DNA of 53,873 nucleotides from a virus. A program made the translations under genes and the position numbers. The notes beneath the pieces were generated by a model. It did no database searches. It saw only the letters and a list, made by a program, of their open reading frames with translations, and was not told where the DNA came from. Every line of letters starts with the position of its first letter. The stretch's first letter is position 1. Location: the IMG/VR virus record IMGVR_UViG_3300025131_008632, positions 1 through 53,873 of that record. One strand, 5' to 3'. This document shows, in pieces, positions 22,626 to 53,873 of the stretch.

Positions 22626-22626
22626 T

Positions 22627-23733: not shown

Positions 23734-23736
23734 TAT

Positions 23737-24978
23737 TTAATCATCCCTCAGCCCAGATCTATCTGGAGTCTCAAGACCAGGCAAAGCATTGAAGTGTTTT
23801 ACGGCGATATTGTCGGCGTCAAAAGAATGGCCGATGCTACGAAGCTTCATTTCTAATTCATCTCGCCCTCCGTCCTGAACCCAATCGAATTCGGAGATAC
23901 CCTTGCTATTCCAAAAAACAAGTGTGTATATCTTGACAAATGAAGGTATGCCTACACTATCAATAAAATTCTTTCCTACATAAACAATTCTGGCTGTGAA
24001 TGGTGTAGAAGCCACACCAGCATCCGTGGGTGAATATGTCCAGTAGCCTGTATCCATCATGTCAAGCTTTGTCATTTTTGTATCATTTTTAGCTATCTCA
24101 AACATTTGACAAGCTATGTTCATATCAGGTGTTCCTGACCCTAGAAGTGAAACAGTCTTCATCGGGTTAGCTGTACTGACCATTTCACCTGGAGCTCCGA
24201 GTCCACCACAGCACGCATCAAGTTCTTCTTCAATCGGTGCAAGCCTGTTACCTTCTAACTGTGGGGACCCTCTATATATGTGCTTTATGGCGTCTTGGAG
24301 CGATTTCATCTGAGTACCACTTGTTAAGTCAGGCCACATCTGGAACGGGGGAGCAAACACTCTCTTTTTTCCCGCTGTATCTTTGTAAATAGGCGGTATG
24401 TAATCTGCATGTCTTGTAAATTGCAAAAGTTCGTTGAAAGGCATGGGCTGTAGATCATCAATACTAGGTGTGTAAGTTGGATCTTCTGCAGGCTCAAGGT
24501 CATTAGTTGTAAAAGATACATAATCAACGTTTATACCAAAAGATGAAGATACGTCTGTTTCAGGCCATGTTCCCACGAGAAATTGTTTGCTAAAGTTATT
24601 TATAGTTTGTTCAAGTAAACTTGCTGTTATAGAAGCAAAGACATCTGGGCTGACAACTTTTGTTATCCTTCCGCTAGATGACGCCTTAAAAACACTTCCT
24701 TCGGCATCTAACTCTAAATCTCCACCACCGAAGTTTAAGATATTTCCAGAGTTATCAGTTTCATAACATATCTGATCTTGTGGTAACGAAGTTGCTTCAA
24801 GAAACAATCTATCACTAGCGTTTGCTGATCCGCTTGCAACATCACCCTCATAGTATGTGTGTCTATCTGTAAAAGAAGCAAACTCTATCTTCATCTTACC
24901 AGAAGACATTTGTCGTCGCCCTTCTTCAGTGACGACAACATCCATGATTCTCATCTTATTATCTAGGATCCCAGCCAT
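23737..24978 (-). CDS. Virion structural protein (N-terminal module shared with the 236-residue protein)
   Basis: This 413-residue protein opens with GILDNKMRIMDVVVTEEGRR, then MKIEFASFTDRHTYY. This pattern matches the first ~45 residues of the gene at 10787-11497 and marks a shared N-terminal domain. A region near 260-300 contains DACCGGLGAPGEM. The C-terminal third (ARIVYVGKNF, VKIYTLVFWNSKG) is beta-like. The ending is Asp/Arg-rich. The two proteins with this domain may occupy equivalent sites, or one may cap the other, which is inference. ATG at 24978 follows GAAGAGAGATAG. The 57-base gap to the gene upstream shows no clear promoter. Confidence 0.75.
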   Translation of the reverse strand: MAGILDNKMRIMDVVVTEEGRRQMSSGKMKIEFASFTDRHTYYEGDVASGSANASDRLFLEATSLPQDQICYETDNSGNILNFGGGDLELDAEGSVFKASSSGRITKVVSPDVFASITASLLEQTINNFSKQFLVGTWPETDVSSSFGINVDYVSFTTNDLEPAEDPTYTPSIDDLQPMPFNELLQFTRHADYIPPIYKDTAGKKRVFAPPFQMWPDLTSGTQMKSLQDAIKHIYRGSPQLEGNRLAPIEEELDACCGGLGAPGEMVSTANPMKTVSLLGSGTPDMNIACQMFEIAKNDTKMTKLDMMDTGYWTYSPTDAGVASTPFTARIVYVGKNFIDSVGIPSFVKIYTLVFWNSKGISEFDWVQDGGRDELEMKLRSIGHSFDADNIAVKHFNALPGLETPDRSGLRDD

Positions 24979-25035
24979 AATTTTCTATCTCTCTTCATTA
25001 ATTATGGTACAAAAGTTTTTTTAGGATGTGAAATT

Positions 25036-25851
25036 TTAAGTACCAGGTCTAAGTGTTGACGCACCTTGATATGAAAGTAAAGGACTTACTCTGTAATATA
25101 GGCGTACAGAAAATTCTGAGTTTGCATTTTTTGCAGAATGTCGACCAATACCTACAGAAAGTGCTGCGTCTACTGTCGGCCTTGAACTCATTGACCCACC
25201 CCAACCTGCTGTACCTTCAGAAACTCTATATCTTTCAATTTCTCCACTAGAGTTATATCCATCTGTAAAATATCTAAACACAGGATAATCTGTTCCACTA
25301 TCTGTTGTTGACATACCGCCTCTAAGATAAACCATTGCAGAATCTTGTGTAGCTAGTGTAAAACCACCACCTCTTGTGACTGTTCCAATCTTTGGCCCAG
25401 AAGAATGATTCCATATTACTATTGAACCTGCAAGACCCTGCTCTCCATCGACAGCAAAATTAACATTCCCGTCAGTAAGACATATTGCAAAAAAACATGT
25501 ATTATTATCTGTTGTACCAGGTGTGTCTGTCCACTCTATAAAAAAATCAAGATTGAATTGTTCGTTAAGCTTATAAGTTGTTCCGTCTTGCTTTAGTAGG
25601 GGGAAAGTGTAAGCTGCAGCATTATTTGACGTTGTAGTTGTTCCGCCGCCGAGTCGTGCTGAGCCTGAATTAATATTAACTGTATTTACATCTCCTGACA
25701 CGGACAATGTCTCTATTACAGTTGTACCGTCTGATTGCCTTGTTGTTCTACTACCTGTTGCTTCTGTTAAGATAAGCGGTCTCCATTCACCGATATCTCT
25801 AAGTTTTAATACACCTGCTTCATTGAATAATGCTCTATTATTTGATGACAT
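25036..25851 (-). CDS. Probable tail-fibre tip or fibre-associated protein
   Basis: This 271-residue protein directly follows a typical tail-fibre gene and overlaps it by one base (TAATG). The N-terminus NNRALFNEAGVLKLRDIGEW is followed by a Ser/Thr/Gly-rich stretch. Residues about 80-240 look like a single beta-sandwich (NFDLD-type strands: FNLDFFIEWTDTPG, NTCFFAICLTDG, NFAVDGEQGLAGSIVIWN). The C-terminus ends LSYQGASTLRPGT. Position and fold suggest a receptor-binding tip, a fibre chaperone-like protein or a second fibre segment. No catalytic residues stand out. It is a candidate host-range determinant by location only. Confidence 0.65.
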   Translation of the reverse strand: MSSNNRALFNEAGVLKLRDIGEWRPLILTEATGSRTTRQSDGTTVIETLSVSGDVNTVNINSGSARLGGGTTTTSNNAAAYTFPLLKQDGTTYKLNEQFNLDFFIEWTDTPGTTDNNTCFFAICLTDGNVNFAVDGEQGLAGSIVIWNHSSGPKIGTVTRGGGFTLATQDSAMVYLRGGMSTTDSGTDYPVFRYFTDGYNSSGEIERYRVSEGTAGWGGSMSSRPTVDAALSVGIGRHSAKNANSEFSVRLYYRVSPLLSYQGASTLRPGT

Positions 25852-37111: not shown

Positions 37112-39007
37112 CTATGTCCCAGTCCCAGTTATATCATCATCTGGATAACGACACTCAAATATTGAGCCTGCAGGACCATACAAAATACCTCTATCGTAGT
37201 TTGCACTACTAGTTGAAACATCAAACATTATGTTGCTGTATTTTCTACCCTGAATATCTGTTGATATGTTCGTTGTTTCAAATGTTGATAGTGCTGTGAC
37301 GCCTGGCTCATTTAAAATAATTGTCATTAAATCAGTCACAATCAAAGGTTGATCAACTTGGAAATTCTTAATATCAAGATATGACTTTAGTCTACTATTG
37401 ATGTTTTGCAACACTATTCTTTTATTATATGTTGTAGAAACTGCAACACTATATGTAACTCCTATATTGACAACCTGTACGTCTAATATATCAACTGCAT
37501 CTGTGATCAGTCTGTGTTGATTTATATATGTGACTAAATTTTCTTTTAAAGAATCAGGTGATACTGCAAGCTGACCTGATTTATTTCTACTGATAATATA
37601 CAGCTGTGTAGATAACGGATTTTGAATATTAGATCTGATTCCTACTCTAAATACTCTACCGAAGTTAGAGGGCATAGTGTAGATTCTTGCGATTAGATCC
37701 TCTTTTGACACTATTCTTGACTGTGAGAATCTTGCAGACAATACTTGTGATCTAAGTTCATTTAATGTGGGCGGGTTTTCACCGCCTGACGCCGCAATTT
37801 CATTATTTACTTCAAGTGAAGCTCTAACAGAAACAATGTTCCCTGTTTCTGCACCCGTAGGAAATCTCATTGACAAACCTGTGATACTCCTTATTGTATT
37901 AGCTGCAACATTATGACCAAGGCCGCCACCAGCACGATATCTAATAGAAATAGTTGTATTTTGAGGTGCCATACCCAATGTTGATGTTCTAAGTAAATTA
38001 TTAGGGTCTATAGAAAATCTACTAAATGTTGATTTTCCGTATAGTGGTAGCGACAGTTCGCTAGGATCAGGCACAATGTCATCGTCCAAAGAATCAGCTT
38101 GACCCGATCCAAATCGTATAGTAGTTAGTCCAGACTGCCTACTAGTAGATACTGTAAATCTATATGGTGCAGGTAGGAGTTCTAAATTTTCAGGTACTTC
38201 ATAAGCGTCTGCACTTGTATTTAACAACCTATTATATACAACATTCTGAGAAAGTGCTTCCACTTCATAATACCGATTTTTTTCTGTATCTGTCACTGTT
38301 AAGATTTCAGATACATTATCAGTACCTAATGTAATCGTTCTAAATGGCATAAATGTATTAGGGACATTGAACTTTTCTTCAATTATTTTTCCAGACATGC
38401 ATGTACCTGTCTGTTTTTGTCCCGCGCCTCGGCCTGCATTTTTTAATATAAAAGTAGACGTTACCAGACCACTTCCAGTACCAGGGTCTTCAATTTTCTT
38501 ATTAATTGTTTTTAAATGAAGGTAGTCTCCATTAGAATCTTTCTCTGCAAAGTCAATGTCTTCTAAAAGTTCAAATAAGACACCGCCATTAGATGAAACA
38601 ACAGTACCTGCTCGTATCACAGGCAAAGCAGAAGCAAGTGGAAACTCTCTTTTAGCTGGATCTGCAGGTACTTCTATATACACTTGAATATCAACAACTG
38701 CAGGAGAAGCGCCTGTAATTTTAACTCCGGCGCTTTTAATAATTTTTTCTAAATTTTTAGTCTCAACTGCTGTTTCGACATTTAACTCATTAAGTTGATG
38801 ATCTAGATAATAACTCATAACATCACCAACATATGCTGCCATATCCAAAAATAGGCCGCCAACAGAAGCTTCTGAAAAATCTTGTATTTGTTCTCCAAAA
38901 TATGTCTGAGCATATAAGAGTAGATCATTTTTAAAACCGTCAAAGTCTTTGTTAAGATAAGACCTTGTTGCTTTTCTTTTAAGTTTATCTCTTAAATCGT
39001 CTGCCAT
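37112..39007 (-). CDS. Baseplate wedge protein, gp6-like (baseplate-J family)
   Basis: This 631-residue protein is close to T4 gp6 in length (about 660) and directly follows the gp25-like gene, as is usual in contractile-tail clusters. The N-terminus has the gp6-like start: DLRDKLKRKATRSYLNKDFD, then GGLFLDMAAYVGDVMSYYLD and a helix with NVETAVETKNLEKI. The middle contains FRFGSGQAD-like strands (TTIRFGSGQADSLDDD) and ISIRYRAGGGLGHNVAANTI, a typical baseplate-J landmark. VSKEDLIARIYTMPSNFGRV and NVQVVNIGVTYSVAV follow. gp6-family proteins form the ring that holds the baseplate together and couples sheath contraction to fibre contact. ATG at 39007. Confidence 0.92.
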   Translation of the reverse strand: MADDLRDKLKRKATRSYLNKDFDGFKNDLLLYAQTYFGEQIQDFSEASVGGLFLDMAAYVGDVMSYYLDHQLNELNVETAVETKNLEKIIKSAGVKITGASPAVVDIQVYIEVPADPAKREFPLASALPVIRAGTVVSSNGGVLFELLEDIDFAEKDSNGDYLHLKTINKKIEDPGTGSGLVTSTFILKNAGRGAGQKQTGTCMSGKIIEEKFNVPNTFMPFRTITLGTDNVSEILTVTDTEKNRYYEVEALSQNVVYNRLLNTSADAYEVPENLELLPAPYRFTVSTSRQSGLTTIRFGSGQADSLDDDIVPDPSELSLPLYGKSTFSRFSIDPNNLLRTSTLGMAPQNTTISIRYRAGGGLGHNVAANTIRSITGLSMRFPTGAETGNIVSVRASLEVNNEIAASGGENPPTLNELRSQVLSARFSQSRIVSKEDLIARIYTMPSNFGRVFRVGIRSNIQNPLSTQLYIISRNKSGQLAVSPDSLKENLVTYINQHRLITDAVDILDVQVVNIGVTYSVAVSTTYNKRIVLQNINSRLKSYLDIKNFQVDQPLIVTDLMTIILNEPGVTALSTFETTNISTDIQGRKYSNIMFDVSTSSANYDRGILYGPAGSIFECRYPDDDITGTGT

Positions 39008-42762: not shown

Positions 42763-43500
42763 CTAAAAGAATATATCAAAGTCATCGTTTTTTGCTAAAA
42801 TTCTATAATGTTTTCTAATAGATGACATTGCAATAGACAGCTGCTTAGGATTTAGATTTGATAAGTCTCGCATATACACAAAGACAGCCCGTTTATTTAA
42901 AAGATCAAGCTCATCAACTTTTTCAAATAGTGTTATTATAGCATCCATGCAAGCAATTTCGTTGTCGCTATTTAGTTTTTTTCTAATCTCTACCATCATT
43001 TTAGAAAGATTTTCTTTAGACTCTTGTATGATAATTCTATAGTCTTGTGCAGGACTTACGCTGTGATTTTCAATTTTAGTCTGGTCAGCTAAACTTAAAC
43101 ATGTGAGATCATCAATACAGACATGTCGCCTATTGCTTTTCATTTTTTGTTTGCTTCTAATAATCAACCAGTTTTTAGCAACTACATTAAAGTAAGAGAA
43201 TGCTTTTGTTCCCCTGGAAGGATCAAACTTATGAAGTGTTTCATACAAGAAAGAAACGCAATCGTTTCTTAGATCTTCATAAGAGCCATTAATTTTAGCA
43301 AAACCATGTATGAATATTAAATTTTCAACTAACTTATTAAAAGCAGGAAGAATATCAGCGACATAGATCTCAGATTTTTTATCTACACTTTCTTCATTTT
43401 GATATCTTACTATTGCTGCGTGTGTGTCTGCATTGAAATATAGATTCTTTTTTCCGCCCTTACGACGCACTCTTCTTGTTCTTTTTCTGACAATTGCCAC
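42763..43500 (-). CDS. Late-transcription sigma factor, gp55-like
   Basis: This 245-residue protein resembles T4 gp55, the sigma-70-related factor that directs host RNA polymerase to late promoters. T4 gp55 is about 185 residues, so this one is longer. The region-2-like core is LRNDCVSFLYETLHKFDPSR followed by GTKAFSYFNVVAKNWLIIRS and KQKMKSNRRH, the usual F-D-P-x-x-G-x-x-A-F-S-Y pattern. The N-terminus is strongly basic (RKRTRRVRRKGGKK). The C-terminal helix region (RAVFVYMRDLSNLNPKQLSI) may act as a weak region-4 substitute. GTG 43500 is the start, overlapping the upstream stop by one base, with AGGAGAG upstream. It is likely needed for the structural genes that follow. Confidence 0.78.
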   Translation of the reverse strand: MAIVRKRTRRVRRKGGKKNLYFNADTHAAIVRYQNEESVDKKSEIYVADILPAFNKLVENLIFIHGFAKINGSYEDLRNDCVSFLYETLHKFDPSRGTKAFSYFNVVAKNWLIIRSKQKMKSNRRHVCIDDLTCLSLADQTKIENHSVSPAQDYRIIIQESKENLSKMMVEIRKKLNSDNEIACMDAIITLFEKVDELDLLNKRAVFVYMRDLSNLNPKQLSIAMSSIRKHYRILAKNDDFDIFF

Positions 43501-43813: not shown

Positions 43814-45007
43814 TCAGCTCTCGCTCTTAGAAGATGATATTTTAGCTGGCGATCTTGTATCTATTGCAGTATTATATGCTTCACATATTTTTTGTTGTGA
43901 AAAGTTTTGTCTAACTGATACCATTAAGCTTTTTGCCCATTCCCCCGGTATCTCATAATTATTTCTAAATTTTTTGATTTTCTTCTTAAAGTCATTTTCA
44001 ATGGGCTCAGCCCACTTAGCGCCTTCGACAAATATTCTATTATCAACTTTTGACTTGGGTATTTCAACAAGCTTATAGTGGACGGGTATGAATTTTTTCT
44101 TTTGTAAAAAATCTAAATGGCCAGACCAATTAGTGACTATAACGGGTAAACAGCTTGCTGCTGCTTCAAGAAGCGGTAAACCAAAACCCTCACCCCTTGT
44201 TAAACTAATAAATGCCCTAACAGAAGTGTCTTTATATAGAGATGAAATCTCTTCTCCTGTCAAATGGCCGTGAAGCAAATGTATTTTTGGATATGGGCCT
44301 TTTCTAACTTGCGATACAGTATCTTTAATCAATTTTTTTGTTAGCTGCTTATCTATCTTTGTATTTTTACCATGATTAGTTTTGATAATCAAGCCTACTT
44401 CTGGGTCATCTTTAAAAACATCACACATCCACTTTAATGTATTAAAAATATTTTTTCTATCAGTGTCTGCATGATCAGCTGTAAATTGACCTACAAGTAA
44501 AAAATTAAAACTTGTATCAAGTTTTAAATCAAGTTGTTCTTTGCTGTCTTTCTCAATTTGCTCATGAAAGCTTTCGTGTACAACAATTACTTCTGTTGAA
44601 ATATCACCAGTCCTCTCAAAAGTTTGTTTAACATGAGTTGACGGCACTATTACAAGATCCATCTTGTTGATACACTCAATCCATGCGGGATTACACAAAT
44701 CTGTCTCAACGCCAGCTGTAACACCCACATTGAAACGTGCTACTGAAGTATCCCATTCATCAGGAAGCTGCACCTGAAATGATATGTCAAACGCCTTGCC
44801 TTCTGGATTTGATCTTTTCATAACTTCACCGATCAGACCATCTTCAAATGTTGGATTAATCATCCAACTTGTTGTTCCCCAGTTAACAACATGTGTTGTA
44901 ACATCAAAGTCTTCTCTAGACAAAAGCCACTTAAAAATTTGTCGAGAATGCACTCCATATCCACTTACTGTCAAAAGTGGAGCTCTAATCAAAACTTTCT
45001 TTTTCAT
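43814..45007 (-). CDS. GT4-family glycosyltransferase (second of a pair)
   Basis: This 397-residue enzyme has the GT-B fold of family GT4. The N-terminus VLIRAPLLTVSGYGVHSRQI forms the acceptor-side loop. The donor side has FNLLVGQFTADHADTDRKNI and the EX7E motif in RGEGFGLPLLEAAASCLPVI, where both Glu are present. It should transfer a sugar from a nucleotide donor to a carrier, protein, glycan or DNA base; the acceptor is unknown. ATG 45007 is preferred over an upstream in-frame TTG because GGGAAG (45015-45020) is well spaced for it. The C-terminus is Ser-rich (KISSSKSES). It follows the other GT4 gene by 21 bases and they are probably co-expressed. Confidence 0.88.
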   Translation of the reverse strand: MKKKVLIRAPLLTVSGYGVHSRQIFKWLLSREDFDVTTHVVNWGTTSWMINPTFEDGLIGEVMKRSNPEGKAFDISFQVQLPDEWDTSVARFNVGVTAGVETDLCNPAWIECINKMDLVIVPSTHVKQTFERTGDISTEVIVVHESFHEQIEKDSKEQLDLKLDTSFNFLLVGQFTADHADTDRKNIFNTLKWMCDVFKDDPEVGLIIKTNHGKNTKIDKQLTKKLIKDTVSQVRKGPYPKIHLLHGHLTGEEISSLYKDTSVRAFISLTRGEGFGLPLLEAAASCLPVIVTNWSGHLDFLQKKKFIPVHYKLVEIPKSKVDNRIFVEGAKWAEPIENDFKKKIKKFRNNYEIPGEWAKSLMVSVRQNFSQQKICEAYNTAIDTRSPAKISSSKSES

Positions 45008-45028
45008 AAAATAACTTCCCAAGGGTTT

Positions 45029-46282
45029 TTAAAATGTCGTACAGTCATATGTCTGATATCTTTCTTTCCAGTTGTCAATACAATCACTTAGTGTTTCATG
45101 CCATAAATCAATTGTATCTTTAATATTGAACTCACTATTCACATATTCCCTGACTTTGATGCTCAATTCTTTCATATCTTTCTCAGGCAGGTCATACATT
45201 TTCATATATGCTGATGCTAGGTTGTCTGGTGTAGTGTAATCTTCATAGATATACGGCACCTGCTGACTCCCAACAAGTGTTTTAACATCAATATCAACAG
45301 CCACGCCATTTTCTGTTCCGTCTCTGTGGTTTACAACTTGTCTTGTCAATCCTCCGGTTTTAGCTGCAACAATTGGCGTGCCCGTTTGCATAGCTTCCAA
45401 TGTCGACAGACCGAAACCTTCTGCATAACTACAGTTTATACAAATATCTGCCACGTTATACAGGACATTCATCTTATCAAACTCGAGGCGATCTCTAGAA
45501 AATACTAGCTGATTTGAAATACCAAGTTGTTCAGCTACCATAAATAAGTTAGGCCCTTCAGGATCGAGTGGTTCTGTGTGCATTATTAATGTGGCGTTTC
45601 TATGACCATGTTTTTCTTCTAAGTTATCTAAGAATATTTTCCAAGAAGCAAGCAAGTCACCTGGTCGCTTTCTTTTTGCATTTCTATTTACCCAAATTGC
45701 AATAAAGTCGTCTTTCTTTTCTTCACCTAGTAAGCTAATTTTATTTTCCCTGATTATATCTTCATTAAGAGGATGAAAGAGATTATCGGGGACTGCGTGT
45801 GGTACAAAATTAGTCTTTTCAGGAAAATTTTCACTGCACATCTCATAAGTCAAATAAGAATGACAATTCAACAAATCAGTAGAATCATACAGTGAATCAT
45901 TAAATCTTGGCGTGGGTCTATTGTCCCAAACATGCCACCAGACAATTGGGCACATCTGGTGGATCTCGTCCTCCATTTCAAACAGCCAGATAAAAAATCT
46001 TGGATCTGTAAAAATAAGAATTGCATCAGGCTTTTCTGTTGCAAGTGCAACTCTAATTAAATCTGGTGAACCGAAACCATCAATAGGTTTGATGATCAAA
46101 TCATCGCTTACAACAATGGTATCATAATTAGTGTGCTTAAGCGCTGCTCCGAATTGTCTAAAAGTCCAGTCACCCTTTTCAATTAGTCCGTTTAAAAGAT
46201 GACGAGTTTGACAACCGACACCAGAAGTAGACAGTGCATGATCTGATAATACCAATACTTTCTTTTTTCTTTTTCCTTCCAA
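45029..46282 (-). CDS. GT4-family glycosyltransferase (first of a pair)
   Basis: This 417-residue GT-B enzyme starts KKKVLVLSDHALSTSGVGCQ, and the Gly-rich loop matches GT4 enzymes. The donor domain has FIAIWVNRNAKRKRPGDLLA and the EX7E motif in YAEGFGLSTLEAMQTGTPIV. The sequence DPRFFIWLFEMEDEIHQMCP lies in the N-terminal domain. The start is TTG 46282: no ATG or GTG lies in frame before conserved residues, and an AAGGG lies ten bases upstream. The two GT4 proteins are paralogous in fold but differ greatly in sequence, so they are not a split gene. The neighbourhood suggests use of sugars made by the upstream glycan genes; this is inference. Confidence 0.87.
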   Translation of the reverse strand: MEGKRKKKVLVLSDHALSTSGVGCQTRHLLNGLIEKGDWTFRQFGAALKHTNYDTIVVSDDLIIKPIDGFGSPDLIRVALATEKPDAILIFTDPRFFIWLFEMEDEIHQMCPIVWWHVWDNRPTPRFNDSLYDSTDLLNCHSYLTYEMCSENFPEKTNFVPHAVPDNLFHPLNEDIIRENKISLLGEEKKDDFIAIWVNRNAKRKRPGDLLASWKIFLDNLEEKHGHRNATLIMHTEPLDPEGPNLFMVAEQLGISNQLVFSRDRLEFDKMNVLYNVADICINCSYAEGFGLSTLEAMQTGTPIVAAKTGGLTRQVVNHRDGTENGVAVDIDVKTLVGSQQVPYIYEDYTTPDNLASAYMKMYDLPEKDMKELSIKVREYVNSEFNIKDTIDLWHETLSDCIDNWKERYQTYDCTTF

Positions 46283-46354: not shown

Positions 46355-47191
46355 TTAAACACAATGCTCTGTATTCTTATATGAACAATAAGTGCAAGAA
46401 TTTCTATTTTTGAGAAATATTTTTTTTCTAACTGAAGAAATCATGTTGTTTAAAATCTTATTTGCTTTTTCTAGTGCCTTAGGCCCTACAGACACTGTTA
46501 CCAGTTCACAGATATTCCCTGGTTTACCCCCTCGTTTTAAAAGGATAAAACCACACCTTATGTCTTTAAGTGGAACAGAGTGCTTTCTAGACCAAAAATG
46601 TTTATATAATATTAGCTGAGCTGTCATTAGTATATCTTGCTTCTTCTGCCTTCGCCAACCATAAGACCCGGCAGTTTTCCAGTCAACAATCCAGTAATTG
46701 TAACCTTCGCCCTTTTTCTTCGGGACTTTTATAACGCCGTCAATATAACCCTTGAAGTTCAACTCTTTATTTTCAACTGTCTCATAAAGCATTTCCTCTG
46801 CTTCAAAGCATTCCCAGCTAGGAAAAGTCTCATCAAGAAATGATGGTACATCGTTCCACATATTTTCTGCCCACTGGCACCATGTGTCTATACCTACGTT
46901 TGATGATTTTAAGTACCAGCCTGGTTGCTTCGCTATCCATTCTGGATTATCAAAACCATATTTGTCCCAAGCTACTCTAATCTCTTTTAATATCTTTTCT
47001 TTGTCTATTGTCTTTGACTTTAGATATGTTTCGCACCCTTCGTGTACTGCAGTCCCAAAATCTAAAAAAGGTGAGGGTTCAAACATGTCTATTTTATCAA
47101 TATAGATTAGCTTATGTCTATAAGCGCACTCTTTCCAAGCTTTAACTTCTGAGAATGAAACGTGGGGTTTACCAGTAGGAAAATTTATCAT
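46355..47191 (-). CDS. PD-(D/E)XK nuclease with probable Fe-S cluster (Cas4/AddB-like)
   Basis: This 278-residue protein has the RecB/Cas4 nuclease layout: VSFSEVKAWKEC (with C22), GTAVHEG (His50), GYIDGVI (Asp) and WIVDWKTA (Asp-x-Lys). The C-terminus carries three Cys, C266-x2-C269-x7-C277. With C22 they fit the four-cysteine Fe-S site of AddB, Cas4 and Dna2-type nucleases. Such enzymes resect DNA ends; here it may work with the SbcCD fusion in recombination. It is not linked to CRISPR genes. A strong sigma70-like promoter lies so close that the message would start at or within a base or two of the ATG (47191), giving a leaderless message. No other start lies before the conserved motifs. 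Confidence 0.85.
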   Translation of the reverse strand: MINFPTGKPHVSFSEVKAWKECAYRHKLIYIDKIDMFEPSPFLDFGTAVHEGCETYLKSKTIDKEKILKEIRVAWDKYGFDNPEWIAKQPGWYLKSSNVGIDTWCQWAENMWNDVPSFLDETFPSWECFEAEEMLYETVENKELNFKGYIDGVIKVPKKKGEGYNYWIVDWKTAGSYGWRRQKKQDILMTAQLILYKHFWSRKHSVPLKDIRCGFILLKRGGKPGNICELVTVSVGPKALEKANKILNNMISSVRKKIFLKNRNSCTYCSYKNTEHCV

Positions 47192-47263: not shown

Positions 47264-48109
47264 TTAGTTTTCGCTTACAGCGCCTTTAATCTCTGACCAG
47301 TCGTAGTTTGTTCTTACTTCTAGATTTTTCTGCCAAGCAGACTCAAGAACGAGTGTTTTTACACCTAGTTCTTCTGCCATGTGCATCATTGCATTTAAGT
47401 CTTTTGGAAAGCATTTTCCACCAAAACCACAGTCTCCATCATGTCCTGGAACATCGATGTGTGAATTTCCAATTCTACCATCTGTAATAAATCCGTGCAA
47501 AGCATCATTCCAGTTTGCGCCTACAGCATCGCTGATCTGTCTCATCTCATTCATATAAGACACTTTAACTGCGAAAAAACAGTTTGCCATATACTTAATC
47601 AGCTGTGATGTTGCAAAGTCTGTTTTTATCACAGGGGTGAATGGAAATCTTTGTTTATACAAGTCTTCGACTTTATTGCAATTCTCTTTAGAGCCACCGA
47701 GAACTACTCGCGCTGTATTGATAAAATCTAATCTTGCTTTTCGCTCAGTTAAAAACTCTGGATTAAAGACAAAATTTAAGTTTTTATATTTTTCTGCATA
47801 TTTTTCTACTGTCCCTGGTACAACGGTCGATTTAATTACAATTACATTGTCTCTTTCATTAACTCTTGAAATATTTTCAATTACAGAGTCCATAATAGAA
47901 AGATCAATATCGCCGCCCTCGACTTGTCGCATAGGGGTGGGAACAGAAACAAAAACAATATCTGATGAGTTTAATGTTTCACTAAAAGTATGGGTTGATT
48001 TTTCAGGTAATACATCGTAAATAAAAATATCATTCACATGCAAAAGAAAGCCTGCTGATATTGCAGACCCTACAAACCCGTTTCCAATAATTCCTATGTT
48101 GTAGTTCAT
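47264..48109 (-). CDS. Short nucleotide-sugar (UDP-glucose/GDP-mannose-type) 6-dehydrogenase
   Basis: This 281-residue protein matches the NAD-binding and catalytic core of UDP-glucose/GDP-mannose dehydrogenases. Residues 5-14 are the Rossmann loop GIIGNGFVGS. FVSVPTPM (53-60) and STVVPGT (94-100) are NAD-contact strands. FNPEFL (115-120) is the usual E-x-L segment. K172 and N176 in IKYMANCFF, and the catalytic Cys233 in GFGGKCFPKD, are all present. Full-length relatives are about 390-450 residues; this one stops about 48 residues after the catalytic Cys, before the C-terminal UDP-sugar domain. Short forms of this kind occur, from memory, in other phages. The product would be a sugar uronate. 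ATG 48109 follows AGAGGT. Confidence 0.88.
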   Translation of the reverse strand: MNYNIGIIGNGFVGSAISAGFLLHVNDIFIYDVLPEKSTHTFSETLNSSDIVFVSVPTPMRQVEGGDIDLSIMDSVIENISRVNERDNVIVIKSTVVPGTVEKYAEKYKNLNFVFNPEFLTERKARLDFINTARVVLGGSKENCNKVEDLYKQRFPFTPVIKTDFATSQLIKYMANCFFAVKVSYMNEMRQISDAVGANWNDALHGFITDGRIGNSHIDVPGHDGDCGFGGKCFPKDLNAMMHMAEELGVKTLVLESAWQKNLEVRTNYDWSEIKGAVSEN

Positions 48110-48131
48110 TTAAGTACCTCTATTCACAATA

Positions 48132-48160
48132 ATCATAAACAGCAAGACACGTGTTTTAAA
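48132..48160 (-). promoter_or_regulatory. Possible promoter before the nucleotide-sugar dehydrogenase
   Basis: On the minus strand TTTAAA (48160-48155), a 17-base spacer and TATGAT (48137-48132) lie in the 62-base gap upstream of the dehydrogenase. The -10 matches five of six consensus bases, the -35 only four. The spacer contains a CACGTG palindrome. AT-richness makes chance likely. Confidence 0.3.
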
Positions 48161-48171
48161 CCTTTAAAAGT

Positions 48172-48708
48172 TTACTGCTCATTGTTTTCTATCCATTCAG
48201 ACTTTAGTAATGAAAGGACATGACCGTCAAGGTACTTTCCATTCTTAAAAACATTTTGTCTTAAAGTACCCTCGTCAATAAACCCTATTTTTCTATAGAT
48301 ATCCAGCGCTTTATTGTTAGAATACACTTCACACCAAATCTTATTCAAGTTAAGTTCTTCAAACCCATATCTTACTAAAGTTCTTAGAGCATCGCTTCCG
48401 ATTCCTTTTCCTCTCATGCTCATGTCGCCCACGTATATCGCAAATTCAGCTTTTCTAGCTTGCCAGTCGATATAGTAAAGTCCAGTATGTCCAATAAGCT
48501 TTTGAGTTTCGGAATCATGTATTTCAAAGTCATATTGATTAGGGTTGTTATGCACTCTTTTTTGATACCACTCTTCTTGCATTATGCTAGTGATCTCTCT
48601 ATGGGTTCTAAAATACTTTCTAAGTTCTGGATTATTTCTCCATTTTCTTAACTGTTCTATTGATTCTGGTTGAACACCAGTTAAATAACATTTTTTACCT
48701 ATAATCAT
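48172..48708 (-). CDS. GNAT-family N-acetyltransferase (RimJ/PseH-like)
   Basis: This 178-residue GNAT enzyme has the acetyl-CoA loop in GDMSMRGKGIGSDALRTLVR and the following LNLNKIWCEVYSNNKALDIY helix-strand. The ending RKIGFIDEGTLRQNVFKNGK is typical of sugar or ribosomal-protein N-acetyltransferases. Between the LmbE-type deacetylase and the dehydrogenase it most likely acetylates an amino group on a sugar, in the way PseH acts in pseudaminic acid synthesis. A RimJ-like role cannot be excluded from sequence alone. Its start overlaps the deacetylase stop (TAATG) and has GGGAGG upstream. Its presence with a deacetylase suggests exchange of acyl groups on one sugar. Confidence 0.85.
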   Translation of the reverse strand: MIIGKKCYLTGVQPESIEQLRKWRNNPELRKYFRTHREITSIMQEEWYQKRVHNNPNQYDFEIHDSETQKLIGHTGLYYIDWQARKAEFAIYVGDMSMRGKGIGSDALRTLVRYGFEELNLNKIWCEVYSNNKALDIYRKIGFIDEGTLRQNVFKNGKYLDGHVLSLLKSEWIENNEQ

Positions 48709-49364
48709 TATAAAACCTCCCTTAAAAGCATGAACCTTTCAGCGCGCTCGACTCCAGACTCAGAACCTGCAACAAGTGCAAGCCTGTCACAATTATCATA
48801 AGATCTGGGATGTGGATGTTGCCTCATCTCACTGTTATAAACACTTAGAGCTTCAAATTTTTTTTCATTATAGTTTGAGATATTAAAGTATGTGTTGGGC
48901 ATAAACTGTTTGATTGGATTCCACTCTGAAGATGAAGGGACTTCATATGCTAAAATTTTAATTCCAGAAAATCTTTCCAGCCCTCTAAAAGCAGTCAGTG
49001 TTGCTTGACATACTATTCTATGATCTACGTTTAAACAATAAGGTGAGTGTGTAAAAACAATATCTGGTACAAAATTATTTTCATCTACAAACTTTTCTAT
49101 TTTTTTTGTTACTTCAAGGATGGGCACTTGATCCATTTTATTGTCTGGGAAATCGTGACTTACCCATTCTTTAATTCCTAATATTCCACATACCTGCCCT
49201 AAGGTATCTCGTCTATCATCTTTGTTATCGTCAAACCTTGCACTGCCACCGTCAGTAAACGTGATCAGCTTTATTTCATTTCCTTCTGCAGATAATCTAG
49301 CTATTGTCCCGCCGCAGCCCAGTGTTTCATCATCAGGATGGGCAGCTAAAACTAAAATTTTCAT
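48708..49364 (-). CDS. PIG-L/LmbE-family N-deacetylase
   Basis: This 218-residue protein has the signature VLAAHPDDETLGCGG (5-19), in which the His and Asp-Asp bind zinc. A second metal-site segment is LNVDHRIVCQA (about 115-125). PIG-L enzymes remove N-acetyl groups from sugars such as GlcNAc-PI, mycothiol precursors and N-acetylated nonulosonate precursors. In this cluster the substrate is probably an acetamido-sugar, freeing an amine for the neighbouring GNAT or formyltransferase-like protein. It overlaps the upstream formyltransferase stop by four bases (ATGA), so the three are translationally coupled. Size and motifs are regular for the family. Confidence 0.9.
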   Translation of the reverse strand: MKILVLAAHPDDETLGCGGTIARLSAEGNEIKLITFTDGGSARFDDNKDDRRDTLGQVCGILGIKEWVSHDFPDNKMDQVPILEVTKKIEKFVDENNFVPDIVFTHSPYCLNVDHRIVCQATLTAFRGLERFSGIKILAYEVPSSSEWNPIKQFMPNTYFNISNYNEKKFEALSVYNSEMRQHPHPRSYDNCDRLALVAGSESGVERAERFMLLREVL

Positions 49365-50035
49365 GTTACTTTCTCAATCAGTGCATCGCATCTTATTTTT
49401 TTATTTTCAATGGAAGCTCTAGAAAACTTTATTAAAAAATTACCTAGTTTTACAGACGCATTTGGATAACCTTCAGCATCTAACATTCTAATGTGATCAT
49501 AAAACTCTATGACCTCATTAATACTATTTACTGGGATTGAAGATGTTTTTCTTCTTTTGTTATATTGTGCATCACTTGCTTCTTGTGCGATTGGTTTTAT
49601 ATTTTTTTCCGTACAGTTCCTAATGAGATTTTTTGCTTGATCTCCTATACTCAACCAAATGTCTGTTAAACTACCTTGAAGAGTGACAGACCTACTACAG
49701 TAAACAGGGCCTGCATCGACGTCGCCTGTCATTTTTATCGCATTCACTTTTGAGTTTTTTACACCCTTAAGTATCTGATTTTGTATTGGGCTGCCGCCTT
49801 TGTCATATGGTAAATTTGAAGTATGAAAAGTCACACATCTAAAATTTTTCCACACACTTTCACTAACGATGTGTGACCAATGAAAGAAAAAAATCCAATC
49901 AGGGTTGACATCGAGCGCAGGATTTAAGTCTTTCTTACTTGAAACCCGTAGCCAATTAACATTTTTTTGTCTTTTTAAATCTTTAAAGACTAAGTTAGAC
50001 CACATGTTATCTTTTGATACAAAAATACAATTCAT
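49361..50035 (-). CDS. Formyltransferase-like protein (sugar-cluster type)
   Basis: This 224-residue protein is related to methionyl-tRNA formyltransferase and other N10-formyl-THF-dependent enzymes. The core is VTFHTSNLPYDKGGSPIQNQ (68-87) and GDVDAGPVY (104-112). In classical FMT the triad is Asn-His-Asp; here the Asn position is Thr69, while H71 and D107 remain. Proteins with this FHxxxLPxxxGGSP form occur, from memory, in sialic-acid-like gene clusters. The C-terminal IRMLDAEGYPNASVKL is another mark of the subgroup. The ATG at 50035 overlaps the NeuB stop (ATGA), a better start than an upstream in-frame one at 50062. It may formylate an amino-sugar or act as a non-catalytic relative. Confidence 0.83.
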   Translation of the reverse strand: MNCIFVSKDNMWSNLVFKDLKRQKNVNWLRVSSKKDLNPALDVNPDWIFFFHWSHIVSESVWKNFRCVTFHTSNLPYDKGGSPIQNQILKGVKNSKVNAIKMTGDVDAGPVYCSRSVTLQGSLTDIWLSIGDQAKNLIRNCTEKNIKPIAQEASDAQYNKRRKTSSIPVNSINEVIEFYDHIRMLDAEGYPNASVKLGNFLIKFSRASIENKKIRCDALIEKVT

Positions 50036-51048
50036 CTTCTTGTTCTCACAATATTGTCCCAAGTAATCAGATCATCTTCTTCGATTGTATTTCTAGCTAC
50101 ATAGCATGACTGAATATTATAAAACTCCTTGGCAGGTACACAGTTTTCTAGGAATGGGCGCTTTGTAGTTACATTATCAAATGTAATAAGTTCACCCTTC
50201 TTTATTTCACGCTTAGACACCACAGATCTTGTTGCTTTTATAAAACTATCTTCACTTGTTGTTGTCTTTGCTTTTTTAATACCCAGGCAATTTTCAGTAG
50301 TTCTAATGTTTTCAACCATTGCAGCAAGTTCGTCAGGTTCGATAGCAAAAGGATGGTCTGGGCCTGGCATAGTACGATCAAGAGTGTAGTGTTTTTCAAT
50401 GGTTGTCGCACCCAATCCAACTGCAATCGGAGGTGCTAAAATACCAAGCGTGTGATCTGATAGTCCTACACTTATCGGTAAACGTAGCTTTTTTATTTCT
50501 TGTATTTGACCCAAGTTTATATCTTCAAATGGCGTTGGGTATGCATTGTTACCATGTAGAAATGTAATGTCCGGATCAGAGTTTTCTTCTTTTACCCAGT
50601 TATAAATTTCTTCTATCATTCTAAGATCAACACCAATACCTGCAGTAATAATCAGTGGTAGTTTTGTTGATGCAGCGTATCTAACTATTCTAGGATCAGT
50701 AGCTTCAAAACCTGCAATTTTAAATCTTTTTACTCCAATCTCATAGAGTTCATCAATTGCTTCCTTGTCAAAAGGTGTTGACATAAACTCAATACCTAAG
50801 TCATCACAATATAATTTTAAATCTTTTTGCCACTCTCTTGGCAACTCTATATCTTTTATCAATTTATTGATATTTGTGTATCCAGCAAAGTCAGGTGTCG
50901 ACTTAGAGTAAAGTTTCTCAGAAGAGTAAGTTTGAAACTTAACAATATCACACTTTGCACGAACAGCAGCTTTAATAAGATTGACTGCAATATTCCAGTC
51001 TCTATTATGATTTGCACCTGCTTCTGCTATAACTGTAACATTTTTCAT
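50032..51048 (-). CDS. N-acetylneuraminate/nonulosonate synthase (NeuB family)
   Basis: This 338-residue enzyme condenses phosphoenolpyruvate with an N-acetyl amino sugar to make a nine-carbon nonulosonic acid. The barrel is canonical: VIAEAGANHNRDWNIAV (6-22), CDIVKFQTY, EFMSTPFD, RFKIAGFEATD, LPLIITAGIG, VGLSDHTLG and TTIEKHYTLDRTMPGPDHPF. The C-terminal SAF (antifreeze-like) domain is present, with SVVSKREIKKGELITFDNVT. Length and order are standard. From sequence I cannot tell whether it makes sialic, legionaminic or pseudaminic acid; the GFEATD loop is not the bacterial sialic form I know best. ATG 51048 overlaps the upstream stop (TAATG). CMP-activating NeuA is not in the window. Confidence 0.93.
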   Translation of the reverse strand: MKNVTVIAEAGANHNRDWNIAVNLIKAAVRAKCDIVKFQTYSSEKLYSKSTPDFAGYTNINKLIKDIELPREWQKDLKLYCDDLGIEFMSTPFDKEAIDELYEIGVKRFKIAGFEATDPRIVRYAASTKLPLIITAGIGVDLRMIEEIYNWVKEENSDPDITFLHGNNAYPTPFEDINLGQIQEIKKLRLPISVGLSDHTLGILAPPIAVGLGATTIEKHYTLDRTMPGPDHPFAIEPDELAAMVENIRTTENCLGIKKAKTTTSEDSFIKATRSVVSKREIKKGELITFDNVTTKRPFLENCVPAKEFYNIQSCYVARNTIEEDDLITWDNIVRTRR

Positions 51049-51869
51049 TATTCTACAACTAGACTGTCAATATATTTTTTATAAAAAGTATCTAGATCAA
51101 TTAAGTTCATCAGATCTTCTATGTTATCTAAAAAGAAATCAAAATTATATTCTAGTTCTTTATCAAATAGTTTTTGTGAACCCTTTCTAATAATACCCAA
51201 AGAATCTTCTGACCCCCATGGCGGGACTAGTATTGACATATCTAAATCTTTTCTTGTTGCACGAAGATCTGCAAATGCACGCCAACAACATCCCGTTCTA
51301 TGGGGATCTTTTTCTAAGTCTCTTGTAAGAGGCACCATATCGTGTAGGATAATAGTGCCATTATCAGTCAAGTGATTTAGTGCACCATTAATATCTCTTA
51401 AAACTTGCCCGTGCTCATGCCAACCATCAATAAAAACAATGTCATAAAGTTTTTCTGTATCTTCAATACTTTCAAAAAAGTCGTCTGACGTTAGTTTATA
51501 GTGTGTTGAGCCGTTAGGTAGTTCAACATCTTCTGGTATGTTTGGGTCAGGGTCAACAGAGTCTTTCTTTTCACAGTTTACTTTATAATATGTTGATCTT
51601 TCTCCTGCAAATGGTTGTCCTCCAATTTCAAGGTAACTTTTGCATTTATGAAGATCTATAAACTTGTTTATTACCGCCTCTTTGTCTTCAAGCCACACTC
51701 TATTTTGATGGTATTCTTGCCACACTGCCATTGCATTATTTCTCTGTAATGCAAAAACGGGCTTCCAATCATCAACTCCTGTGTGAACATTTCTTGCACT
51801 TCTTAACAACTGCCCGAAACACGTTTTGTCATCTTTTTTGTTATCAATAACTTGGCTCGTATAGCTCAT
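51048..51869 (-). CDS. Class I SAM-methyltransferase-like / cephalosporin-hydroxylase-type protein
   Basis: This 273-residue protein has a Rossmann-like fold with SYLEIGGQPFAGERSTYYKV (about 78-97) as the SAM-binding loop, VDPDPNIPEDVELP as the acidic second strand, and YDIVFIDGWHEHGQVLRDIN followed by NGTIILHDMVPL as the post-core strands. This D-G-x-H-x-x-x-x-x-x-D and L-H-D pattern is found in the Methyltransf_24 group. It may methylate a sugar or glycan in the pathway. A proline-free catalytic residue cannot be pinned down. It lies between the aminotransferase and NeuB with tight spacing, and AGGAA precedes its ATG. Confidence 0.78.
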   Translation of the reverse strand: MSYTSQVIDNKKDDKTCFGQLLRSARNVHTGVDDWKPVFALQRNNAMAVWQEYHQNRVWLEDKEAVINKFIDLHKCKSYLEIGGQPFAGERSTYYKVNCEKKDSVDPDPNIPEDVELPNGSTHYKLTSDDFFESIEDTEKLYDIVFIDGWHEHGQVLRDINGALNHLTDNGTIILHDMVPLTRDLEKDPHRTGCCWRAFADLRATRKDLDMSILVPPWGSEDSLGIIRKGSQKLFDKELEYNFDFFLDNIEDLMNLIDLDTFYKKYIDSLVVE

Positions 51870-51878
51870 AATAATTTC

Positions 51879-53129
51879 CTAAGTATTTTTTCTAAAAACA
51901 GACACTGATCTTTTTCCTTTTAGAACACTGTCAATTTTATTCATATTATCTTTCACTGTACTGAATGCTTCATCAGCTGCCTCTAATGTTCTGAGAATAT
52001 CGTATTCTGTGTGAGCAAAGTTTATATACAGTACGTTTGAAAATAAAATTCCTTGTCTTACCATTTCTTGATAAAATAAGTCTCTCATCCCAGCAGAATC
52101 TTTATAATCATTTGAGAATGTTAAGTTATGCCTTGGCCCAGAACCTGCAAATACTATGTCTAAATCATGCTTGCTTGCAAGTTCACTCATTCCTGCTTCA
52201 AATAAACTACCAAGGTGCCAAATGTGATTGTAATCTTTGTTTTGCAATTCTTTGATAGTTGCAATTGATGCTGCGAGAGAGAGGCACTCACCTCCAAATG
52301 TCATAGAGAAAAAAGCATGATCCAACTCTTTCATGTACTCAGCCTTACCTGCTATTGCTGATATAGGCATTCCATTGGCCATCGCCTTGCCGAAACACGC
52401 TAAATCTGGTGTTACGTTATAATACTTTTGAGCTCCGCCTAAATCCCACCTGAAACCTGTAACAACTTCATCAAAAATAAGCAAGGCTCCATAAGTACGA
52501 CACAAACGCTTGACGCCCTCTAAGAAGCCAGCAGCCGGTGGTGTTAATGCTTGCACCTCCATTATAACTGCTGCGCATTCATTTGCCTTCAAAACATTGT
52601 GTAAACTATCAAGATTATTGTATTCAAAGTCATGTACATAATCTTTTAGCACGCTAGGTACACCATAGGGTCGTAATGAAGCAGCATGCCAATCACCCCA
52701 GCCGTGATAACCACACTTAGCAATATGCTCACGACCAGTATAAGATCTAGCAATTCTAACTGCAGCAAGGTCAGCATCTGTACCATTTTTTCCAAATCTA
52801 ACTTGCTCAGCACAAGGGACAACGTCAACAATTAATTGTGCTAATTCTTGTTCTAGATAAGTGGGTAGAGAAAAAATTACACCTTTGTCTAACTGATCTT
52901 TAATTGCTTTGTTTGTTGACTCGTGATTGTAACCCAATATAACTGGACCAAGTCCGCACATAAAGTCAAGATAATCTTTGCCATCTTCGCATGTAATGTA
53001 TGCACCTGATGCTTTTAAGGCGAACTTGGGATACACACCATCGACAAACTGGTCTGGGCACTTACTCATTGTTTGCGTGCCTCTGGGCATAAGCCTAATA
53101 GCATTTTCCCAACTAAGATTCTCTGTCAT
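51879..53129 (-). CDS. Class III PLP aminotransferase (GSA-aminomutase-like)
   Basis: This 416-residue fold-type I PLP enzyme is of the class III/glutamate-1-semialdehyde aminomutase group. LIFDEVVTGFRWDLGGAQKY has Asp220 for the PLP ring nitrogen, and FGKAMANGMPISAIAG has Lys248 for the Schiff base. GKNGTDADLAAVRIAR (113-128) is the phosphate-binding loop. In glycan clusters this group also contains sugar and amino-acid transaminases, so the nearby NeuB makes amino transfer to a sugar ketone more likely than haem synthesis. Its ATG lies after a 61-base gap with a possible promoter. The protein seems complete. Confidence 0.9.
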   Translation of the reverse strand: MTENLSWENAIRLMPRGTQTMSKCPDQFVDGVYPKFALKASGAYITCEDGKDYLDFMCGLGPVILGYNHESTNKAIKDQLDKGVIFSLPTYLEQELAQLIVDVVPCAEQVRFGKNGTDADLAAVRIARSYTGREHIAKCGYHGWGDWHAASLRPYGVPSVLKDYVHDFEYNNLDSLHNVLKANECAAVIMEVQALTPPAAGFLEGVKRLCRTYGALLIFDEVVTGFRWDLGGAQKYYNVTPDLACFGKAMANGMPISAIAGKAEYMKELDHAFFSMTFGGECLSLAASIATIKELQNKDYNHIWHLGSLFEAGMSELASKHDLDIVFAGSGPRHNLTFSNDYKDSAGMRDLFYQEMVRQGILFSNVLYINFAHTEYDILRTLEAADEAFSTVKDNMNKIDSVLKGKRSVSVFRKNT

Positions 53130-53151
53130 ACTTTATCCATTTTAATTGATT

Positions 53152-53181
53152 ATTTTAACAAAAAAACGTAGTATTTATCAA
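53152..53181 (-). promoter_or_regulatory. Possible promoter (or T4-late-like element) before the aminotransferase
   Basis: On the minus strand TTGATA (53181-53176), an 18-base spacer and TAAAAT (53157-53152) lie in the 61-base gap. Overlapping the -35 is GATAAATA (53179-53172), seven of eight bases of the T4 late consensus TATAAATA. Either reading gives an entry point for the sugar genes; the sequence is AT-rich, so confidence is modest. Confidence 0.38.
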
Positions 53182-53190
53182 AATTTATTT

Positions 53191-53873
53191 TTAGATAAGA
53201 ATCTTCAAAAGATTAGCAGCACTATCATAACTATTTGTAGGCCCGTTCTCAATAATGTGTTTCCATTGAGTAATATAAGAGTTTTCAATATCATTGGCTG
53301 TAATAACTTGTCTATGGATATGGCCACTACTATCTACGCATTCAAAATGCCTGATATAGTCTCTGCTACTATATGATAGACAAAAGTTTACTAATTTATT
53401 CTCATATTCCCACGTTATAAATGCAGAGTCACTTGCATCATTTGTAATATTGTCAAACAGCTTCTTTTCAAAATTTTTGTGACTTATAGGTAGCCCTAGT
53501 ATGGACATTACATAATCAGGCTCGTGGATAAAGTCTAGTATAACACCGCCGCCTTGATTTTTATTTGCACTGTATGAGTCTAAGTGATCTGTGTTTGGTC
53601 GCCACTTTGGCAAATACGACATTGAAACAATATTGATTATTCTGCTATTTTTTGACAGTTTTTTAATATTCTTGCAAGCTTCTGTAAATCTAATATTGCA
53701 TCCCACATGAACTTTTTTAAAATCAATCTTATCTCTGTAATTTTCAATTCTTTCAATTGATGTGTCAAGTGGCTTCTCAATGAATATTAAATCTTTGATG
53801 TTTTTAAATTTAGATGCAACTTCTAAGTGCGAAGCGCTAGGTGTGCAGACTACAAGTATATTAAAATGATCTT
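53191..53873 (-). CDS. Gfo/Idh/MocA-family oxidoreductase, partial (runs off the right edge)
   Basis: This frame is open to the edge (226 residues visible, first full codon at 53871); the N-terminal Rossmann loop lies outside. Visible parts: VVCTPSASHLEVA, then the family hallmark IEKPLD with the catalytic Lys, VGCNIRF, and GGGVILDFIHEPDY, whose Asp and His match the D-x-x-x-H catalytic pair. The C-terminus is a standard alpha/beta fold. Family members oxidise or reduce a hydroxyl on nucleotide sugars or free sugars with NAD(P). In this cluster it probably makes the keto-sugar for the aminotransferase next to it. The GTG at 53706 is internal, not the start. Confidence 0.88.
   Translation of the reverse strand, partial: DHFNILVVCTPSASHLEVASKFKNIKDLIFIEKPLDTSIERIENYRDKIDFKKVHVGCNIRFTEACKNIKKLSKNSRIINIVSMSYLPKWRPNTDHLDSYSANKNQGGGVILDFIHEPDYVMSILGLPISHKNFEKKLFDNITNDASDSAFITWEYENKLVNFCLSYSSRDYIRHFECVDSSGHIHRQVITANDIENSYITQWKHIIENGPTNSYDSAANLLKILI

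Follow-up and report, generated by a model that had tools for sequence, protein, structure and literature searches.

Nonulosonic acids are usually treated as surface sugars made by cells, and the locus described here raises the question of what a phage does with a set of genes for their synthesis. The set occupies positions 47264-53871, on the minus strand, of IMG/VR record IMGVR_UViG_3300025131_008632, which was analysed in its entirety (53,873 bases; hereafter the window). All eight genes named in a preliminary description of this DNA were present in a single run, and family searches confirmed each of them. As the best explanation we propose, with moderate confidence, that the block makes a cytidine monophosphate (CMP)-activated nonulosonate for glycosylation in the cytoplasm, most likely of virion proteins. 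As a prediction from sequence, the synthesis part of this pathway has good support, and the gene set very probably yields an activated sugar of the sialic acid kind in the infected cell.

The synthase gene of the block encodes a NeuB-family nonulosonate synthase with a SAF domain (50032..51048; PF03102, expectation value (E) 1.4e-69; PF08666, E 5.8e-8), in which the SDHT and EKH motifs are retained. Residues H199, H220 and R297 were invariant in the family alignment; we take the first two to be the metal-binding histidine pair and the third to be the SAF arginine. The closest PDB relatives were pseudaminate synthase, SpsE and NeuB. The proposal of a nonulosonate-type pathway on a phage was thereby upheld, NeuB lying inside the sugar-synthase family and not with non-sugar synthases of the 3-deoxy-D-arabino-heptulosonate 7-phosphate (DAHP) kind. 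The protein scored below every NCBIfam equivalog cutoff, i.e., 279 bits against 399.65 for N-acetylneuraminate (Neu5Ac) synthase and 242.7 against 340.25 for PseI.

In a tree of 85 NeuB sequences, for which the search for cellular members covered the 80 best cellular loci and in which starred values denote support by the Shimodaira-Hasegawa-like approximate likelihood ratio test (SH-aLRT) only, the window's NeuB fell within an all-viral clade of 24 sequences (100*) that held zero cellular rows. This clade grouped with SpsE (1vli) and five cellular rows (98*), and stood apart from the LegI-like, PseI and meningococcal NeuB rows, 1xuu included. Nor did the protein group with legionaminate synthases, being separate in the tree from L007 and L262, whose LegI label is our own reading of their neighbours. 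With SpsE as the nearest type, and with none of the 41 related virus records containing a NeuC/LegG or PseG protein over cutoff, a Neu5Ac-type pathway, which falls under the sialic acid option of the preliminary description, was not supported. Viral relatives of NeuB were found only by alignment-based search; a single-sequence scan of viral contigs yielded none. In G036 and its relatives, the corresponding syntenic site holds a NeuB of a second all-viral clade, which indicates that the cassette has been exchanged there. Four genes upstream of this alternative cassette (G036, 21167-25307; L178) matched no Pfam family.

Chance was ruled out for the family assignments by their E-values. Since every gene of the block is read from the minus strand, the right edge of the window is where the operon starts. 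There lies the 3' part of a Gfo/Idh/MocA oxidoreductase gene (53191..53871; PF02894/PF01408; GFO_IDH_MocA_C, E 1.5e-4; NCBIfam IolG-like, 4.5e-10), which retains an EKP motif, lacks the N-terminus because the record ends at that point, and is 46% identical to an intact 273-residue homologue in the relative G001. It is followed by a class III (HemL/PRK06209-like) pyridoxal phosphate-dependent aminotransferase (51879..53129; PF00202 (Aminotran_3), E 7.9e-48) with a retained FGKAM motif, which reached 342.6 bits with the PRK06209 model (cutoff 486) and is 65-76% identical to the aminotransferases of 19 phage loci. An S-adenosylmethionine-dependent methyltransferase (Methyltransf_24; 51048..51869; PF13578, E 5e-11) comes next, at a position where the nearest relative, G001, has no gene. 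Beyond NeuB are a formyltransferase-like protein of the 1zgh type (FMT-A; 49361..50062; PF21553 (Formyl_trans_C_2), E 2.3e-15; PDB 1zgh, E 7.3e-41), one of two viral subtypes of such proteins, a PIG-L family deacetylase with AHPDDE and DHR motifs (48708..49364; PF02585, E 3.6e-25), and a PseH-like GNAT N-acetyltransferase (48172..48708; Acetyltransf_3, E 1.4e-20; TIGR03585 PseH, 91.4 bits with a cutoff of 93.1). The last gene encodes a short nucleotide-sugar dehydrogenase of 281 residues (47264..48109; PF03721 (UDPG_MGDP_dh_N), E 8e-25; PF00984, E 3.2e-23; phrog_9148, E 5e-53), which is without the C-terminal nucleoside diphosphate-binding domain yet retains GGKCFPKD. From the aminotransferase through the GNAT gene, neighbours overlap or sit no more than 10 bases apart, with gaps of 61 bases between Gfo/Idh and aminotransferase and 62 bases between GNAT and dehydrogenase. 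As a separate observation, the short dehydrogenase is common to the window and 10 relatives, 10 of these 11 proteins being 281-288 residues long and 10 of 11 having the GGxCFPKD catalytic motif.

The preliminary description had remarked that NeuA is not in the window. This is true of the window itself, but it is best read as an edge effect. In G001, the gene for a CTP_transf_3 cytidylyltransferase overlaps the start of Gfo/Idh, and a PseB-like 4,6-dehydratase gene (366 bits with the PseB model, cutoff 407.75) lies 2 kb farther upstream; in G002 and the contig behind L275, which like G001 belong to the window's sub-lineage, CTP_transf_3 is likewise directly upstream of Gfo/Idh, and the PseB-like gene adjoins it or lies close by. 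All 41 related NeuB-bearing virus records contained a CTP_transf_3 match above the cutoff. Judging from these relatives, truncation best explains the lack of NeuA in the window. Activation genes, which the preliminary description suggested seeking beyond the right end, lie just upstream in relatives, and transfer-type genes are nearby. In one phage, a single protein of 538 residues (L167, 9398-11011) consists of a cytidylyltransferase fused to NeuB.

The related loci are modular. Their open reading frames were called mechanically and clustered by BLAST, with names taken from profile searches of representatives, and modules were counted in the 43 loci that had enough upstream sequence. The PseB-like gene was found in all 43 and the CTP cytidylyltransferase in 42. 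Each of the 43 had one type of aminotransferase (DegT in 34, class III in nine), never both and never none, and Gfo/Idh accompanied class III in 9/9 loci and DegT in 0/34. On the NeuB tree the switch of aminotransferase type needed seven changes, at least six of them forced by starred branches. When the aminotransferase served as seed for a separate scan, 19 loci were obtained and DegT was absent from all of them; two of these loci (L278 and L281) end beside the aminotransferase, and all of the remaining 17 had the PseB-like, cytidylyltransferase and Gfo/Idh genes, with NeuB in 16. PIG-L accompanied the window-type formyltransferase in 10 of 11 loci (Fisher p 6e-9, an indication only, since the loci are related and such p-values overstate independence) and adjoined it in nine of 10, whichever aminotransferase was present. 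Variants of the sugar gene set occupy the same place in dozens of related phages.

The source of the window is a fragment of a T4-superfamily phage lineage known from environmental DNA only. The window is an entire IMG/VR record without end repeats, and is for this reason probably a fragment. The phage origin assumed in the preliminary description was confirmed by genes within the window for a baseplate wedge subunit (37112..39007, minus strand; phrog_6, E 8e-18), an SbcC-like nuclease, a primase and RuvC, and by terminase, portal, head protease and major head protein genes in G001. Besides these, the window holds an exonuclease and a weak match to a T4-type late sigma factor; the head and packaging genes, which together with these place the lineage in the T4 superfamily, were seen in G001 and not in the window. 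Between Gfo/Idh and SbcC the window and G001 are colinear, with cassette proteins that are 46-76% identical, and about 25 phage contigs repeat the order exonuclease, glycosyltransferase family 4 (GT4) protein b, GT4 protein a, small protein, late sigma factor and baseplate. The window's own flanking genes, all on the minus strand, are a RecB/Cas4-like exonuclease, which is a phage core gene (46355..47191; phrog_69, E 6.9e-18), the conserved partner GT4b (45029..46282; PF00534, E 9.7e-14), an unfused GT4a (43814..45022; PF00534, E 1.4e-9) and the T4 gp55-like late sigma factor that anchors the locus (42763..43500; phrog_234, E 9.6e-4 in the window and 8.7e-6 in a relative). No DNA match to a named phage was found for the right half of the window, and the T4 late-promoter motif was not enriched (11 matches observed, 20 expected). 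A cyanophage identity was rejected, as a psbA-family gene was present in 0 of 28 records.

In about 13 relatives (e.g., L102, 6366-8429, and L138, 5990-8011) GT4a is 664-687 residues long and carries an extra C-terminal domain, which also occurs alone near NeuB. The predicted structure of this domain (predicted local distance difference test (pLDDT) 84.5) found its best PDB match in the CstII sialyltransferase (E 6.8e-4, probability 1.00, template modelling (TM) score 0.44), followed by an archaeal HPPK of the MptE family and then Maf. Its sequence profile gave no significant match against the PDB and its distant cellular sequence relatives in NeuB loci are Maf proteins. No flippase- or polymerase-like gene was found near NeuB in the relatives, and by a simple hydropathy count none of the proteins in 57 related loci reached five predicted membrane spans. 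Maf moves nonulosonates onto flagellin protein in the cytoplasm (PMC4065374). Protein transfer of this cytoplasmic kind fits the absence of membrane assembly genes, which makes glycosylation of virion proteins the leading reading.

In the scheme that we infer, from its individual reactions and their order to the product structure and acceptor, the block would be the downstream half of a phage operon acting in the infected cell. Its product would be a CMP-activated, N-acylated 6-deoxy-amino nonulosonic acid, pseudaminic- or legionaminic-like, made by an SpsE-type synthase and distinct from Neu5Ac. The PseB-like uridine diphosphate-N-acetylglucosamine (UDP-GlcNAc) 4,6-dehydratase, encoded upstream in relatives, would first form a 4-keto sugar. 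A second amine would then come from the class III aminotransferase together with Gfo/Idh, the former being a candidate 4-aminotransferase standing in for DegT/PseC, and the N-acyl groups would be set by the PseH-like GNAT and by the pair of PIG-L and formyltransferase-like proteins. After release of the nucleotide, a step to which no enzyme is assigned, NeuB is predicted to condense the sugar with phosphoenolpyruvate, and the SpsF-like cytidylyltransferase, also upstream in relatives, would charge it with CMP. Finally, the sugar would be used in the cytoplasm by soluble phage glycosyltransferases, with virion proteins as the most likely acceptors.

Besides the relatedness of the loci already mentioned, several points weigh against this scheme. 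No match over cutoff to NeuC/LegG (PF02350) or to PseG (TIGR03590) was found in any of the 41 related records, of which many are fragments and others are longer than 120 kb; this leaves the sugar-freeing step unexplained. A GT-B protein family, c12 (L110, 6892-8034, and 21 relatives), immediately precedes the PseB-like gene in roughly half of the relatives, and the closest PDB folds to its predicted structure (pLDDT 92) are UDP-GlcNAc 2-epimerases; its sequence profile had no significant PDB match, the fold comparison alone giving one, and since GT-B folds are widespread, c12 is only a candidate for sugar release. It was not seen in the window, in G001 or in the window's own sub-lineage. Neither the dehydratase nor the cytidylyltransferase is encoded in the window sequence itself. 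L276 (1-8895), of the window lineage, has PseB, cytidylyltransferase, Gfo/Idh and aminotransferase genes followed directly by the dehydrogenase, and NeuB is missing from this site. Where the aligned methionyl-tRNA formyltransferases have Asn before the catalytic His, the formyltransferase-like protein has Thr, so that its activity is not certain. As to transfer, the TM-scores of the fold matches are only about 0.45, and the GT42/Maf-like domain was not found with its own profile in the window, G001 or the G036 stretch; it was not found among baseplate relatives either.

The same CMP-nonulosonate might instead remodel a host surface glycan (lipopolysaccharide, capsule or flagella), e.g., for receptor masking or superinfection exclusion, a possibility that we regard as unlikely but as the chief rival to the virion reading. 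Prophage EpaA/EpaB convert pseudaminic to 8-epipseudaminic acid in Acinetobacter and thereby alter the host capsule (PMC12053666). Both G001 and G036 have, upstream, large glycan islands that contain many glycosyltransferases, and a flippase, a ligase or the sugar-releasing step could be supplied by the host. However, multi-span membrane proteins were absent from all 57 loci, the T4-type structural genes suggest a lytic phage, for which conversion matters less, and the operon runs in the direction of the virion genes, beside the late sigma factor.

A different amino- or keto-acid sugar (3-deoxy-D-manno-octulosonate (Kdo)-like or 3-amino), with NeuB catalysing a non-nonulosonate condensation or standing unused, is improbable. 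The G001 cytidylyltransferase scores best with KdsB-type models, the 41 records contain no known hydrolase over cutoff, and L276 keeps PseB, cytidylyltransferase, Gfo/Idh and aminotransferase without NeuB. These points stand against the NeuB and SAF architecture with its conserved family residues, the PseB-like dehydratase in 43/43 loci, and nonulosonate synthases as the nearest characterised sequence relatives of NeuB.

T4-type phages glycosylate their DNA, and the GT4 proteins weakly match a GT4-conflict family, as expected if the sugar hypermodified phage DNA and the GT4 pair were DNA glycosyltransferases. We consider this very improbable: the thymidylate synthase/dCMP hydroxymethylase family was present in only two of 28 related records (many of them fragments), the fused GT4a domain of the relatives resembles sialyltransferase/Maf, and we know of no precedent for nonulosonates on DNA. 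Least credible is an assembly chimera, contamination or decaying cargo in which bacterial genes were joined to a phage contig, for although the window is a metagenomic fragment ending inside the block, the junction is bridged by colinear, separate contigs that come from other metagenomes, at the 46-76% protein identity noted above, reading frames and motifs are intact, and NeuB and the aminotransferase are far closer to their best phage relatives (65% and 76% identity) than to their best cellular ones (46% and about 43%).

Returning to nonulosonate transfer onto virion proteins, a broader proposal can be made tentatively, i.e., that this phage clade possibly has a complete nonulosonate protein-glycosylation system of its own, comprising a virus-owned synthase, interchangeable aminotransferase and acyl modules and glycosyltransferases with Maf/sialyltransferase-like domains, with cassette swapping at a fixed site beside the late sigma gene akin to switching of virion serotype. 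If the sugar is on virions, the particle chemistry of such phages would be built in and switchable, with a bearing on adsorption, immune recognition and defence evasion, and the phages would offer a testable system for virion glycosylation. The strict pairing of the class III aminotransferase to Gfo/Idh, like that of PIG-L to one formyltransferase type, predicts reactions unassigned in the nonulosonate pathways considered, and the absent hydrolase poses a specific enzyme-discovery question. Such phages probably make a sugar coat for themselves or alter the one on their host. In the open-access literature, searched mostly at the level of titles and abstracts, no account of a nonulosonate pathway carried by a phage came to light; lists of phage metabolic genes may well already include neuB on its own. 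The published phage cases that we found modify a host-made sugar, whereas this lineage of environmental T4-like phages has genes for the synthase and for activation, along with acyl and amino modules that vary. The lineage is marked by a NeuB clade of its own and by repeated exchange of modules.

Among known systems, SpsE/SpsF of Bacillus subtilis (spore-coat polysaccharide) is similar in that NeuB falls in the 98* set with SpsE and that the relatives' upstream cytidylyltransferase is also CTP_transf_3 and, by eye, SpsF-like. The phage block differs in being phage-borne and in having a class III aminotransferase and Gfo/Idh instead of DegT, and no SpsG/PseG-like protein in the phage records passes the PseG model. 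With the CMP-pseudaminic pathway (PseB-C-H-G-I-F) it shares a PseB-like dehydratase (in relatives), a cytidylyltransferase, a synthase of the NeuB family and a PseH-like GNAT just below cutoff; unlike that pathway, the window has a class III enzyme in place of a PseC-type DegT, no PseG, and a NeuB far under the PseI cutoff. A Lokiarchaeota metagenome-assembled genome (L183) has adjacent genes for an SpsF-like cytidylyltransferase, a class III aminotransferase and a NeuB (45-46% identity), with a PseB-like gene nearby, but it is cellular, and Gfo/Idh, formyltransferase and PIG-L were not recognised beside them. A plasmid cluster of Halorussus caseinilyticus (L009) unites cytidylyltransferase, Gfo/Idh, formyltransferase, NeuB and PIG-L; there, however, NeuC is present and a class III aminotransferase is not listed.

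Maf-dependent flagellin glycosylation islands likewise combine a cytoplasmic transferase with adjoining nonulosonate genes that are hypervariable (PMC4065374, PMC13317340), and the domain fused to GT4a in the relatives is distant kin of Maf. They differ from the present loci, which are phage-borne, have the domain fused to GT4 and would act on an acceptor that is conjectural here. EpaA/EpaB of the Acinetobacter baumannii prophage are also nonulosonate enzymes encoded by a phage, and a CTP_transf_3 domain is among their parts (PMC12053666), but they modify a sugar made by the host, whereas here the synthase itself is encoded by the phage. A NeuB match in Moritella viscosa (L002, FPLJ01000048.1) was set aside as evidence from phages, being a bacterial polysaccharide contig that sits in a phage collection. 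Kyanoviridae virus AG-345-L05 (L003) is a T4-type phage that does have SpsF-like, DegT and NeuB-like genes, but its NeuB is just 28% identical and its gene set is another. GT29 sialyltransferases form a family typical of eukaryotes. In a 484-kb uncultured phage (LR756508.1; L004, 11256-16077), several genes by a NeuB-like gene resemble them, one by a PF00777 match (E 7.9e-32) and the rest by eye.

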